Positions 8,062-13,175 of a stretch of 64,000 nt of DNA are shown here, piece after piece. The DNA is taken from positions 1,116,001-1,180,000 of the forward strand of contig NZ_JBAKFF010000001.1 of the NCBI RefSeq assembly GCF_040838345.1, written 5' to 3'. A program made the position numbers and the translations under genes. Below the pieces are notes generated by a model that was not told the DNA's origin, did no database searches, and saw nothing but the letters and a program-made list of their open reading frames with translations. The stretch is from Spiribacter sp. 1M189. GTDB lineage: Bacteria > Pseudomonadota > Gammaproteobacteria > Nitrococcales > Nitrococcaceae. Each line of letters opens with the position of its first letter. Positions within the stretch are counted from its first letter, which is position 1.

Positions 8062-9449
8062 TCGGCTTCGCGGATGATCTCGAGCGCGGCATCCAGGCGC
8101 TCCACCACCATGACGTCCAGCCCCTTGGGCCTGTCCCCCGGCGACGGGCAGTTCTTGGCCGGCACAAGCGCCCGCCGGAAGCCATGGCGGGCCGCCTCCG
8201 CGAGGCGATCGGGGCCATTCGGAACCGGGCGAATCTCGCCGGCCAGACCGACCTCGCCGAAGATCACCCAATCCTGGGGAATGGGTCGGTCGCGCAGGCT
8301 GGAGCTCACCGCGAGCAGCGCCGGCAGATCGCTGGCGGTCTCGCCAATGCGCACGCCACCGACAATGTTCACGAACACATCCTCTCCGTAAGTACTCACG
8401 CCGGCATGGCGCTGGAGCACCGCCAGCAACATGCCCAGGCGATTACCATCCAGGCCCACCGCCAGGCGGCGGGGATTGGACAGCGGGCTCTCCGCCACCA
8501 GCGCCTGGAGCTCCAGCAGCAAGGGCCGGGTCCCCTCCCGCGTCACCAGAATGGCGCTGCCGGGTACCGGCTGCTCGTGGCGCGAGAGGAATATCGCCGA
8601 GGGGTTTTTCACCTCCTTGAGCCCGGTGTCAAGCATGGCGAACACGCCCAGTTCGTTGGCCGCGCCAAAGCGATTCTTGACCGCGCGCAGCAACCGGTAG
8701 CGACTGCCGGAGTCGCTCTCGAAATAGAGCACCGTATCGACCATGTGCTCAAGCACCCGCGGCCCGGCCAGTTGCCCTTCCTTGGTGACATGGCCGACCA
8801 GGAACAGCACGGTGCCGGTCCGCTTGGCGAACTGCACAAGCTGGGCGGCGGATTCCCGTACCTGCGCAACCCCGCCCGGCGCGGAGCCCAGCGAATCACT
8901 GTGAATGGTCTGGATGGAGTCCACCACCAGCACCTCCGGGCGCTCCCGGGCGGCGAGCTCAATGATGGTCTCGACCCGGGTTTCGGCCAGCAGCCGGAGT
9001 CCGTCGCCCTCCACCCCCAGGCGCTCGGCACGCATACCCACCTGGCGCAGCGACTCCTCGCCGGTGACATACAGTGCGCCGTGCCGACCGGCAATCTGCG
9101 CCACGGCCTCCAGTAACAGCGTCGATTTTCCGATACCCGGATCGCCACCGAGCAGGATCACCCCGCCGGCGACCAGTCCACCGCCGAGCACCCGGTCAAA
9201 CTCACCAATCCCGGTGGGAAAACGCGTTTCCTGATCACGCGGGACTTCCGAAAGACGCTTGATGCCGCTGTCGCCGGCGTAGTGCGCGCCGCCCCGGGTC
9301 GACCCGCGCCCACCCGCCGGTGGCGCCGCCTGGACCTGCTCTTCAAGGGTGTTCCACTCACCGCATTCCGGGCACTGCCCCGCCCACTGCATGGAGACTC
9401 CGCCACAGGCGGTGCAGACGTAACGGGTCTTGACGCTAGCCTTGGCCAT
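8058..9449 (-). CDS. radA: DNA repair protein RadA (RecA-like branch migration ATPase)
   Basis: 463-residue protein that promotes branch migration during recombination. It starts with a C4 zinc finger (CTACGG and CPECGEW), then a RecA-like core with Walker [15 protein letters not shown], Walker [10 protein letters not shown], the RadA-specific KNRFG motif, and a C-terminal Lon-protease-like domain ([16 protein letters not shown] to LVPAKNCP). The start at 9449 is preceded by GGAGG and matches the family N-terminus MAKxKxxYVC. It overlaps the alr 3' end by 14 bp, consistent with cotranscription after dnaB-alr. Confidence 0.96.
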
Positions 9450-10539
9450 GATCGCCTCCACGACGATAGACACGCTGCAGGCGGGGCGTGAGCTGGCAGA
9501 AAAGCTCGTAACTGATGGTGCCGCAGTGACCGGCGATCTCGGTGGCAAGCGGCGCTCCGCCCCAGAGCGTGACAGTATCCCCGACCCGCGCCTGCGGTGC
9601 ATTGCGCAGATCAATGCAGACCATGTCCATGGACACCTTGCCGATCACCGGACAGCGCTGGCCGTTGACGTGCACCGGCGTCCCATCCGGCGCCTGCCGC
9701 GGGTAGCCGTCACCATAGCCGATGGAGACGACCCCCACCGGCATAGCCTCGGGGCAGACGAATCGGGCCCCATAGCCGACGCCGTGTCCGGCGGGAAGCC
9801 GTTTGACGGAAATCAGCGCGGCCTCCAGCGTCATCACCGGACGCAGCCGCGGATGAATCCGCGCATCCGCAAATGGCGATGCCCCATAGAGCATGATGCC
9901 CGGGCGCACCCAGTCGGCATGGGCCTCGCGCCCGTGGAGCGTGGCCGCGGAATTGGCCGCCGTCGCCTCGGCAGTCACGGCAGAAGACCCGGCCAAAGCG
10001 CCGAAACGCCCGAGCTGCGCCTCGGTCACCGGGCTGTCGGGCTCATCGGCACTGGCAAGGTGAGTCATCCAGCGCACCGCACCCACGCCCGGGAGACGAC
10101 GGAGCCGATCCAATGCCGCCGGTGCGTCCCTGGGCAGAAAGCCCAGGCGCCCCATGCCCGTGTCCACCTTCAGCCAGCAGTCGATCGGGGCGGTGATGTC
10201 CGCCTGGGCCAGCGCCTCGATCTGCCAGGGCTGATGAATGACCGCGTCCAGCCGCCGCGCCGCAAAGGTTCCAAGCTCATCGGCATCGAAAAAGCCCTCG
10301 AGCAGGACAATGCGATGCCCAAGCCCCGCCAGTCGAAGCGGCAGCGCCTCCTCGAGGCAGCTCACGGCAAAGGCGTCGGCGGAGTCGGCCAGCTCGTGGG
10401 CCACCGGCAGCAGGCCGTGCCCATAGGCATCGGCCTTGAGGACCGCCATGAGGTTGGATCGGGGTGCCCGGCGTCGGGCCACGGACAGGTTATGCCGGAG
10501 GGCGTCGAGATCCACCGTCGCCCGGGCCAATCGGCTCAC
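9436..10539 (-). CDS. alr: Alanine racemase
   Basis: PLP-dependent enzyme that makes D-alanine for peptidoglycan. It has 367 residues. The PLP lysine is Lys35 in AVLKADAYGHG, and the catalytic Tyr region is GVGYGARF. A TIM-barrel N-terminal and beta C-terminal domain fit the standard length. The start ATG overlaps the dnaB stop by 4 bp (ATGA), and the 3' end overlaps radA by 14 bp, so dnaB-alr-radA is a tight operon. The dnaB-alr pairing is common in gammaproteobacteria. Confidence 0.95.
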   Translation of the reverse strand: MSRLARATVDLDALRHNLSVARRRAPRSNLMAVLKADAYGHGLLPVAHELADSADAFAVSCLEEALPLRLAGLGHRIVLLEGFFDADELGTFAARRLDAVIHQPWQIEALAQADITAPIDCWLKVDTGMGRLGFLPRDAPAALDRLRRLPGVGAVRWMTHLASADEPDSPVTEAQLGRFGALAGSSAVTAEATAANSAATLHGREAHADWVRPGIMLYGASPFADARIHPRLRPVMTLEAALISVKRLPAGHGVGYGARFVCPEAMPVGVVSIGYGDGYPRQAPDGTPVHVNGQRCPVIGKVSMDMVCIDLRNAPQARVGDTVTLWGGAPLATEIAGHCGTISYELFCQLTPRLQRVYRRGGDHGQG

Positions 10540-13175
10540 TGCCAGCCTCCGCCCCCGTAACCGGAATCCGCAATGAAGTTCTCGAAGCGCGTGTACTGGC
10601 CGAGGAACGTCAAGCGTACCGTGCCGACGGGCCCGTTACGCTGCTTGCCGATGATGATCTCGGCCGTCCCCGTATCAGGACTCTCCTCGTTGTACACCTC
10701 GTCGCGGTAGATGAATACGATGACGTCTGCATCCTGCTCAATCGCGCCCGAGTTGTGACTGACAATACCGTTCGCCAGCCAACATTCCGTCTCCGGGACC
10801 GTAAGGTCATAGACCGTCTCTTCGCCAGCGTCCTCGATGGACACGACGCGGTCCCAGAAAAGATCATCAGAGGCGACACCACGAAGAACTTCATCGCCGA
10901 GCAGGTCAGCATACCCCCTCACCGTCTCTCTTGATGGTGAGAAGGAGAAATGCGCACTGCCCCCATATGCCGTCCCCCGAAGCTTCGCCATACCGCGATG
11001 ACTGATGCCGCTCTCGAGCATGCGCTCCCGAATAGTGTCAAACACTTCGCGGGGTAGCGTATCAACGTTCGTATTGATGCGAGCCGCCTGAAGATTCGCG
11101 CGTATCTCGTCGATCTGACCGGCCTGGCTTCCGAAGGCCCCGATTCGATCCAGGAAGACGAGCTGGTCCTTGGCCCCGGACACGTCAACCGTAAACCAGC
11201 CCTCGCTCTGCGGATGCTTGACATGCCGGACGCGGGCGAAAATCCCAAATTTGAGCAGTAAATCCGCGACATCCCTTGCCAGTTGCTGGCTCGCGGTCGC
11301 GAAGTAGATGCGAACACGACCATTACGGGCAACCGTTATGCTCCCATCGGTTGCCCAAAGGTGCCGGACAAAGAGTGCCATCTGGTCGGCAGAAAGCTGG
11401 AACACCTCCTCGGGCAGGGTCTTTTCCCGGGATCTCTGTCCGAAAACACCTAATTCCTTTAACCACTTACCGACGCCCGCCGGATGCCAGCGGTTGCCGT
11501 TCCCGCTAATGAGTAGCTGATGCCAGTTACCACGCCCCTCCCGGCGCTTCACTACCGAACCCATTGCCTCCGCAGCCTGACGGACCGCCTGGCTATTCTC
11601 TTCACTCGCGGTGGTATATCGGAGCGGCTGGTTCTTTACATAACTGCCGTCACCGACCAGGTGGCCCAACAGGATGAGCGCATGTTCAGACCAGCGCTTT
11701 GTGGCGGACGACTCCGGAAGATGTCGGGCGACTCCGAGGCGGTCACCGAAACGAATCTCCTCTACCCGCCGCCATCCCCACAGGGTTCGGAGCCTATGCT
11801 CGGACGTACACCTTATCGAGCGGCCGCTGGCCAGATTGATACGGAAAACACGACGCCGCCCGACCTCCCAGACGAGATCGGAGCGGGCCGTAGCAAGCGT
11901 GCCCCGATGATCGATCGTGAGCACCTCGGGCTGCTGACCGACCAGGGATTCAATTGGCCTCCGCGAGCCATCTGCTAGCATGACACGCGTATCGCCCGTC
12001 ACACACTCACGAAGATCCGACATGATCGGGCGCTTGTTCGGCCGCTGCTCCAGGCTGCGGTTGAGCTGCGAGAGCACCATCACCGGCACCCCCAGCTCCT
12101 TGGCCATGCCCTTGAGGGCGCGGGAGATCTCGGAGATCTCGGCAGCCCGGTTTTCCTTGAAACCCGGCAACTGCATGAGCTGCAGGTAGTCCACCATGAC
12201 CAGCCCCAGCCCATGCTCGCGCTTCAGGCGCCGACAGCGGGCCCGCATCTCGGTCGGCGTGAGCCCCGGCGTGTCGTCGATGAACAGATTGGCCTGCGAG
12301 AGCAGATTCATGGTGCTGGTGAGGCGCGGCCAGTCGTCATCGCTGAGGCGACCGGAGCGGATCTTCTGCAGCTCCACCCGACCCAGCGACGAGAGCATGC
12401 GCATGGCAAGGGAGTCGGCGGGCATCTCCATGCTGAACACCGCCGTGGGCGGCCCCTTCTGCAGTGCTGCCGCCTCGGCGATGTTCATGGCGAAAGTGGT
12501 CTTGCCCATGGAGGGCCGACCGGCAACGATCACCAGATCCCCGTTCTGCAGACCGGAGGTCATCCGGTCGAGATCCGTGAACCCCGTTGCCAGGCCAGTG
12601 ACATCGCTGTCCTGGTGGTAGAGGGTGTCGATGCGATCCACCACATCCGGGAGCACATCGCGCACCCCCACGAAACCGCGGCGGTTGCGGCCCGACTGCT
12701 CGGCGATCTGGAAGATCAGCCTCTCGGCACTGTCGAGCAGATCCGCGGAGGTCTGACCCTCGGGGTTGAAGCCGGCGTTGGTGACCTCGGTGCCGGCCTC
12801 GATGAGCTGCCTGAGAACCGACTGTTCGCGGACGATGTCGGCATAGGCCCGGATATTGGCGGCGCTGGGGGTGTCCCGCGCCAGCAGCCCGAGGTAGCCG
12901 AGCCCCCCGGCGTTCTCAAGCTCATCGTTGGACTTGAGCCACTCCGAGAGGGTGACCGCATCCATGGGACGGCCGGACTCGGCCAGGGACTCGAGGGCGC
13001 GGAAGATCAGCCGGTGATCACGGCGATAGAAATCGCCCTCGCCGACCCGGTCCGCGATCTGATCCCAGGCATTGTTGTCCAGCATGAGCCCGCCGAGTAC
13101 CGCCTGCTCCGCCTCGATCGAGTGCGGAGGCACCTTGAGCGCCTCCGCCGGTGAGGGGTTGCGGGCTTCAGCCAT
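10536..13175 (-). CDS. dnaB: Replicative DNA helicase DnaB with an in-frame intein
   Basis: Hexameric replication fork helicase. The precursor has 879 residues. Residues 391-808 are an intein, leaving an extein of 461 residues, the normal DnaB length. The extein contains the N-terminal DnaB domain (about 15-120), Walker A GRPSMGKTT (219-227), Walker B VMVDYLQLM (326-334), the motif H3 region SQLNRSLEQRP, and motif H4 split as SDLRE (386-390) and SGAIEQDAD (809-817). Function requires protein splicing to join Glu390 to Ser809. The C-terminus is short and Gly-rich (GYGGGGWQ). The gene follows rplI by 16 bp and overlaps alr by 4 bp. Confidence 0.96.
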   Translation of the reverse strand: MAEARNPSPAEALKVPPHSIEAEQAVLGGLMLDNNAWDQIADRVGEGDFYRRDHRLIFRALESLAESGRPMDAVTLSEWLKSNDELENAGGLGYLGLLARDTPSAANIRAYADIVREQSVLRQLIEAGTEVTNAGFNPEGQTSADLLDSAERLIFQIAEQSGRNRRGFVGVRDVLPDVVDRIDTLYHQDSDVTGLATGFTDLDRMTSGLQNGDLVIVAGRPSMGKTTFAMNIAEAAALQKGPPTAVFSMEMPADSLAMRMLSSLGRVELQKIRSGRLSDDDWPRLTSTMNLLSQANLFIDDTPGLTPTEMRARCRRLKREHGLGLVMVDYLQLMQLPGFKENRAAEISEISRALKGMAKELGVPVMVLSQLNRSLEQRPNKRPIMSDLRECVTGDTRVMLADGSRRPIESLVGQQPEVLTIDHRGTLATARSDLVWEVGRRRVFRINLASGRSIRCTSEHRLRTLWGWRRVEEIRFGDRLGVARHLPESSATKRWSEHALILLGHLVGDGSYVKNQPLRYTTASEENSQAVRQAAEAMGSVVKRREGRGNWHQLLISGNGNRWHPAGVGKWLKELGVFGQRSREKTLPEEVFQLSADQMALFVRHLWATDGSITVARNGRVRIYFATASQQLARDVADLLLKFGIFARVRHVKHPQSEGWFTVDVSGAKDQLVFLDRIGAFGSQAGQIDEIRANLQAARINTNVDTLPREVFDTIRERMLESGISHRGMAKLRGTAYGGSAHFSFSPSRETVRGYADLLGDEVLRGVASDDLFWDRVVSIEDAGEETVYDLTVPETECWLANGIVSHNSGAIEQDADVIVFIYRDEVYNEESPDTGTAEIIIGKQRNGPVGTVRLTFLGQYTRFENFIADSGYGGGGWQ
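10752..12005 (-). mobile_element. Full-length DnaB intein with LAGLIDADG homing endonuclease
   Basis: 418-residue self-splicing element, precursor residues 391-808. Splicing blocks seen: N-terminal Cys391 in CVTGDTRVML (block A), TSEH at 457-460 (block B), VVSIEDAGEETVYDLTVPE (block F, 777-795), and the C-terminal NGIVSHN with terminal His-Asn (block G), followed by Ser+1 of the extein. The endonuclease is the two-motif LAGLIDADG (DOD) type: LLGHLVGDG (502-510) and FVRHLWATDG (602-611). Acidic residues are retained in both (Asp509 and Asp610), so it may be active. A later ISHRGMAKLRGTAYGG region looks like the DNA-recognition helix set seen in DnaB inteins. Base composition is lower in GC than in the surrounding exteins. 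Confidence 0.95.

Follow-up and report, generated by a model that had tools for sequence, protein, structure and literature searches.

The described inteins that resemble the one analysed here most are largely residents of DnaB. The Ssp and Npu DnaB inteins share with it a DnaB host, the class 1 splicing fold, similarity at 60-69 bits and a match of predicted fold; unlike it, their solved forms are mini-inteins, they score far higher against the lineage of a neighbouring site, and they sit two residues later, at a site denoted 0 (SDLRESG/S, the slash marking the junction). The M. smegmatis DnaBi2 and M. tuberculosis DnaB inteins resemble ours as endonuclease-bearing class 1 inteins in motif H4 (PMC6195587), where DnaBi2 is assigned to 'insertion site a in motif H4' and described as splicing almost immediately (Kelley 2018). 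The mycobacterial inteins probably differ in site: we take them as 0-site inteins from the related Nocardia farcinica intein, which reads SDLRESG/S, and for this reason a candidate assignment of a mycobacterial intein to the site two residues earlier, denoted -2 (SDLRE/SG), was dropped. Neighbouring intein sites in a replicative helicase are also described for haloarchaeal MCM-a and MCM-d, and in PMC10643990 occupancy of MCM-d is associated with the identity of the next residue, Ser versus Pro; there, however, the helicase is an archaeal MCM and joint occupancy is possible, whereas the DnaB sites are 6 bp apart and were never occupied together in the loci collected here. The dnaB inteins of Halorhodospira neutriphila and Halomonadaceae (L085, L054-L056, L068, L105 and L110) share site, lineage and 54-61% identity with the intein analysed here. 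Four Halorhodospira-like dnaB genes (L008, L009, L010 and L013) differ in that they carry a second intein in the P-loop besides the -2 intein in H4; their open frames span 804-1210 aa, some of them cut by contig ends.

The accessible text of the literature searched, including PMC6195587, PMC7360933, PMC10643990, PMC5784728, PMC4853749, PMC2814812 and PMC5050341, holds no description of the -2 site; the search covered sources other than InBase and Novikova 2016, where the site may have been listed earlier. Queries combining Spiribacter with intein, or intein with SDLRE, returned no match.

In the window, that is, the whole 64,000-nucleotide stretch of Spiribacter sp. 1M189 DNA that was analysed, the dnaB precursor forms one open frame of 879 codons that contains an in-frame insert of 418 aa. 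The features are given below in window positions, with conservation counted among the 80 inteins of at least 390 aa at the -2 site.

10536..13175, minus strand: dnaB precursor, comprising N-extein, intein and C-extein (ORF, Pfam/NCBIfam)
12006..13175, minus strand: N-extein, 390 aa, ending ...MSDLRE (translation, empty alleles)
10752..12005, minus strand: intein of 418 aa, running from Cys1 through His417-Asn418 and inserted at the -2 site in the H4 region of DnaB (translation, Pfam, empty alleles, model)
10536..10751, minus strand: C-extein, starting SGAIEQDAD, stop codon included, with Ser+1 at 10749-10751 (translation)
11721..12005, minus strand: N-terminal splicing half, residues 1-95 (model; limits judged from mini-inteins of congeners)
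12003..12005, minus strand: Cys1, splicing nucleophile of block A (C in 80/80)
11796..11807, minus strand: block B TSEH, residues 67-70 (H70 in 80/80, T67 in 75/80)
11082..11693, minus strand: LAGLIDADG endonuclease domain, residues 105-308 (Pfam, model, dN/dS)
11640..11672, minus strand: LAGLIDADG motif 1, LLGHLVGDGSY, with Asp119 (D in 77/80)
11421..11423, minus strand: Lys195, candidate catalytic lysine of the endonuclease, a role presumed from this enzyme class (K in 80/80)
11337..11363, minus strand: LAGLIDADG motif 2, HLWATDGSI, with Asp220 (D in 79/80)
10869..11048, minus strand: HTH-like module, residues 320-379 (modelled as five helices; kept in the G004 allele that lacks the LAGLIDADG part)
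10752..10868, minus strand: C-terminal splicing half, residues 380-418, with His417-Asn418 at 10752-10757 (translation, conservation, model)

The preliminary description had read the insert as a full-length intein with a LAGLIDADG endonuclease in DnaB H4, and the motifs, profile matches, empty alleles and predicted fold all agree with such an intein, of class 1. Its coordinates proved exact: the insert comprises precursor residues 391-808, starts with CVTGDT, finishes with SHN and interrupts the gene between SDLRE and SGAIEQDAD, a junction that is borne out by four congeners whose dnaB is uninterrupted at the same codon boundary. Without the insert, the exteins sum to 461 aa. An artefact or a misreading of two genes is ruled out by the single open frame together with these four empty alleles. 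The end of dnaB, with its stop codon, shares 4 bases (10536-10539) with the GTG start of the ORF that follows on the minus strand (9436-10539); judged by eye, that ORF looks like alr.

In the precursor, Pfam profiles matched the DnaB N and DnaB_C domains, the latter split into two stretches, and NCBIfam PRK07773.1, an intein-length DnaB model of 886 positions, covers residues 7-867 in one stretch. The profile check proposed in the preliminary description for residues 391-808 came out positive for both parts, with matches to Intein_splicing (1.4e-19; 70.8 bits against a cut-off of 35.8; residues 398-808) and LAGLIDADG_3 (5.1e-25, in two stretches). The splicing blocks that it had listed, C1, T67-S-E-H70, H417-N418 and the following Ser+1, are present and make up the Cys1, TxxH block, C-terminal His-Asn and +1 nucleophile of a class 1 intein, with C1, H70, H417 and N418 invariant in 80/80 inteins of at least 390 aa at the -2 site; the two LAGLIDADG helices with both aspartates, D119 and D220, are likewise present, as in endonucleases of the LAGLIDADG (DOD) type, along with K195. 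The insertion lies at SDLRE/S, and in this gene Ala occupies the +1 position of the classical site, which sets the intein apart from those of site 0; the junction, of the form [SA]DLR[ED]/SG, and the placement in the -2 clade (see below) assign it to the -2 lineage. Third-position G+C is 0.66 in the intein compared with 0.86 in the extein, as for a sequence of other origin or under other constraint.

The AlphaFold2 model of the intein, built with 50 aligned sequences, has a pLDDT of 94.4 and a pTM of 0.91. In a Foldseek search of the PDB, the top match was the endonuclease-bearing TliVMA intein (E 3e-23, TM 0.67, rmsd 6.7). PI-PfuI and PI-SceI were among those that followed, and farther down came the Ssp and Npu DnaB mini-inteins, which matched the splicing part, and I-DmoI, which matched the endonuclease part. 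The model has the fold of an endonuclease-bearing intein, and its HTH-like module is probably DNA-binding.

This dnaB is the only DnaB_C locus detected at E <= 0.001 in the 1.95-Mb assembly, and no further inteins were found in that assembly. With dnaB present in a single copy, an essential gene would depend on splicing, as the preliminary description had suggested. We are highly confident in reading the element as a class 1 intein that is complete and probably functional, bears a LAGLIDADG homing endonuclease, resides in the only dnaB gene, belongs to the -2 lineage and, as we propose, owes its host range to the +1 Ser. Splicing, cutting and homing would follow from the intact residues and the established biochemistry of inteins: after translation, Cys1 would attack the Glu-Cys bond, the extein would be transferred to Ser+1 of the C-extein, and Asn418 would cyclise, releasing the 461-aa DnaB, while the endonuclease would cut intein-free dnaB alleles and repair would copy the intein in.

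A scan of genome contigs with the aligned inteins, taking the best 80 of 139 relatives, yielded 79 distinct loci, 69 of which have both flanks at [SA]DLR[ED]/SG. Four others (L092, L098, L108 and L112) show one flank at the -2 site and are truncated, frameshifted or part-deleted; in L108, from Vreelandella lionensis, the frame of the -2 intein is broken by 8 in-frame stops within an essential gene, perhaps a sequencing error. The remaining 6 of the 79 loci sit in proteins other than DnaB. Part-deleted inteins include those of L010 (223 aa, motif 1 only), L113 (280 aa, with motif 1 and the HTH-like part retained) and L034 (231 aa, HTH-like part only). By record title, the hosts of -2 inteins, many of them MAGs, span 12 phyla: Pseudomonadota, Cyanobacteriota, Actinomycetota, Bacteroidota, Myxococcota, Planctomycetota, Deinococcota, Gemmatimonadota, Bdellovibrionota, Thermodesulfobacteriota, Bacillota and Peregrinibacteriota. 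One of these titles is doubtful, that of a MAG named Klebsiella pneumoniae (L107), whose intein groups with those of Gammaproteobacteria.

Surveys of 244 cyanobacterial genomes with a mixed query (47 genomes with a match at 1e-25) and of 396 actinobacterial genomes with a 0-site query (59 with a match) revealed both kinds of site among the best loci, at most 30 from each survey. A Nocardia farcinica relative and three viral contigs have their inteins at SDLRESG/S; a Nocardia farcinica locus (L153, NZ_LN868939.1), a replicative dnaB with a 0-site intein, lies on a 2.66-Mb record labelled "plasmid 2" that looks chromosomal. In one gammaproteobacterium (L255, genome G726), the N-terminal junction in dnaB, RESG/CLTGDS, is that of site 0, as read on the N side. 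Altogether, the loci collected contain 89 distinct inteins at -2 and 37 at 0, two residues away, a ratio that is not a frequency because the scan was seeded with -2 inteins and each phylum survey contributed at most 30 loci. These counts uphold the earlier claim that the Spiribacter site is distinct from that of the Synechocystis DnaB intein: against a 0-site intein, the Ssp and Npu inteins of solved structure reach 160-207 bits, compared with 60-69 bits against the Spiribacter intein.

In a quick tree of 108 inteins of at least 390 aa (80 at -2 and 28 at 0, with 18 shorter inteins left out), 79 of the 80 -2 inteins fall on one side with an SH-aLRT of 100; the exception, L132, from a viral helicase and read as -2, has a very long branch outside the -2 clade. 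We then removed 25 rows manually, namely L132, L209 (a 0-site intein on a long branch) and 23 that each had a near neighbour still in the set; the resulting tree of 83 splits 61 to 22 between -2 and 0 with 100/100 support, and five positions differ near-fixedly between the two groups. On these trees, the DnaB H4 inteins form two lineages, 0 (SDLRESG/S) and -2 (SDLRE/SG).

A class 1 intein requires Cys, Ser or Thr at +1. All 37 hosts of 0-site inteins have Ser there, whereas in the 89 hosts of -2 inteins the same position is Ala in 80, Ser in 8 and Asp in 1, so that 81 of the 89 could not host a 0-site intein. As background, we compiled 120 dnaB genes from three genome surveys (56 gammaproteobacterial, 60 actinobacterial, 59 cyanobacterial), using the first 40 usable rows per list (two cyanobacterial rows come from one genome). 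The window's own row was passed over, as were, in the actinobacterial and cyanobacterial lists, frames from about 860 aa upwards, presumably intein-bearing. Intein junctions were detected in five of the 120 genes (four at 0, one at -2). Among intein-free genes, Ser at site 0 was found in 5/39 gammaproteobacteria, 12/40 actinobacteria and 24/36 cyanobacteria; the survey rows nearest the queries come first, and these are not unbiased frequencies of Ser and Ala. The Ser used by the -2 site was present in 119/119 readable background genes. We propose that the -2 lineage uses a residue that DnaB keeps constant, and the 0 lineage one that varies. Since the +1 residue of the -2 site is the invariant Ser of RESG, the -2 intein could occupy DnaB proteins that would be barred to the classical intein, which needs Ser where most of the sampled gammaproteobacterial and actinobacterial DnaB proteins have Ala. 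The +1 residue, which correlates with site occupancy across the sequences sampled, would in this way explain the host range.

It is also possible, although we find it rather doubtful, that the two-site split reflects shared ancestry, the -2 lineage having spread in taxa with Ala while the +1 residue had no causal part. Each site class is one lineage, so the host differences are not independent, and -2 inteins occur in Ser hosts too (8/89). Against this stand the established requirement of class 1 inteins at +1, the presence of both lineages in Cyanobacteria and Actinomycetota, and the 0-site N-junction in one sampled gammaproteobacterium.

The comparison of strains for presence or absence that the preliminary description had called for revealed full, part-deleted, mini and empty alleles among relatives in Spiribacter. 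From 14 genomes, dnaB was obtained for 13 (G008, 74% complete, gave none): five carry the full 418-aa intein (G000, G001, G003, G009 and G010), one a part-deleted intein of 231 aa (G004) that has lost the LAGLIDADG part and kept the HTH-like part, three a mini-intein (G013, 133 aa; G005, 145 aa; G011, 133 aa), and four are intein-free (G002, G006, G007 and G012), with the sequence SDLRESGAIEQDAD and no scar. The empty alleles of G002, G007 and G012 share a short haplotype just before the site, too short to weigh. In a tree of 91 splicing domains, the nine Spiribacter inteins form one clade (SH-aLRT 98, from few columns), which fits one entry into the genus, alongside which transfer within Spiribacter is possible. 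The dnaB extein tree of the 13 species has good support for 4 of its 10 inner branches. On it, the three intein states require 7 changes, no fewer than with shuffled labels (mean 6.6), so that allele state is not clustered by descent.

The five full alleles give 10 pairs for dN/dS, of which seven are saturated and three have measurable dS. In these three, dN/dS is 0.050, 0.055 and 0.058 for the endonuclease; the extein gives lower values (0.016-0.036) and the splicing part higher ones (0.067-0.103). The endonuclease looks to be kept by selection in these full alleles. An intein that still splices while its endonuclease is dead or dying, passed on by simple inheritance, seems unlikely to us: four of the nine Spiribacter inteins have lost endonuclease parts, and in the three measurable pairs intein and extein show roughly equal synonymous divergence, but both catalytic aspartates and Lys195 are intact, the endonuclease dN/dS is low in these pairs, and none of the five full alleles contains a stop. 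In the three pairs, dS is higher for the endonuclease than for the extein, and alike or lower for the splicing part; with no clear drop in dS from extein to intein, recent transfer between those Spiribacter species is not seen, and the pattern argues for descent from a common ancestor instead. Recent transfer among the five full alleles was accordingly discarded as a candidate. If the full alleles do descend from a common ancestor, G002 and G012, which nest among them on the extein tree, have lost the intein.

Before the site, the empty G012 and the full G001 are 94-99% identical for 400 bp and, farther upstream within 2.7 kb, 71-88% identical (100-bp steps); after the site, identity is 89-99% over 1.5 kb and, taken in 250-bp steps, 91-98% out to about 4 kb. 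This profile indicates that a recent exchange, in either direction, of a block spanning the site joined the empty and the full lineages, and such exchange is a possible route of intein loss. The exchanged block covers part of dnaB, and the extein tree is blurred as a result. Farther downstream, at about 6-8.5 kb from the site, the two genomes (loci L345 and L346) are again 88-100% identical over a second stretch, and the overall pattern of identity reads as a mosaic of exchanges.

That the intein serves as a regulatory switch delaying DnaB maturation under stress, like DnaBi1 of M. smegmatis, is improbable: conditional splicing of a DnaB intein is published in PMC6195587 and PMC7360933, and salt is listed in the former among the conditions to which inteins respond, but the published case is a class 3 intein in the P-loop, the H4 intein DnaBi2 is described there as splicing almost instantaneously, and four Spiribacter congeners manage without the intein.

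A tblastn search with the intein gave hits in 74 of 50,697 phage records (20.9-27.9% identity among the 30 listed) and in 5 of 72,556 plasmid records (best 37.6%, Nocardia), all at less than 60% identity, and a phage or plasmid source was rejected on these matches. An IMG/VR scan gave 30 loci, of which 22 were read and two read as -2, L123 (56% identical) and L132 (29%, on the long branch). L123 is a 59-kb contig that has its own DnaB with the -2 intein; judged by eye, it is phage-like and a possible carrier between hosts. Phages apparently can carry a -2 DnaB intein, and no donor of the Spiribacter intein was found among the phage, plasmid and IMG/VR records searched.

The element itself is an ordinary intein of a known kind. 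What goes beyond the preliminary description is that the -2 site is common to a large family of inteins and that Spiribacter holds several allelic states; for specialists, interest lies in the -2 lineage and its distance from the classical site, in the residue rule and in the series of alleles within one genus. On balance, we see about an even chance that the full picture holds, in which two sister homing lineages, offset by 6 bp and mutually exclusive, are sorted by a Ser/Ala codon, the invariant Ser opened at least 10 phyla to the -2 lineage, and Spiribacter displays the life cycle of the element while ordinary recombination also moves dnaB alleles between species. What makes an intein reside at one site rather than at the adjacent one can seldom be tested; here, two related inteins lie 6 bp apart in one essential gene, and a single extein residue would predict which of them is possible. 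With full, part-deleted, mini and empty alleles in a genus of halophiles with small genomes, homing, decay and loss may be measurable on one gene.
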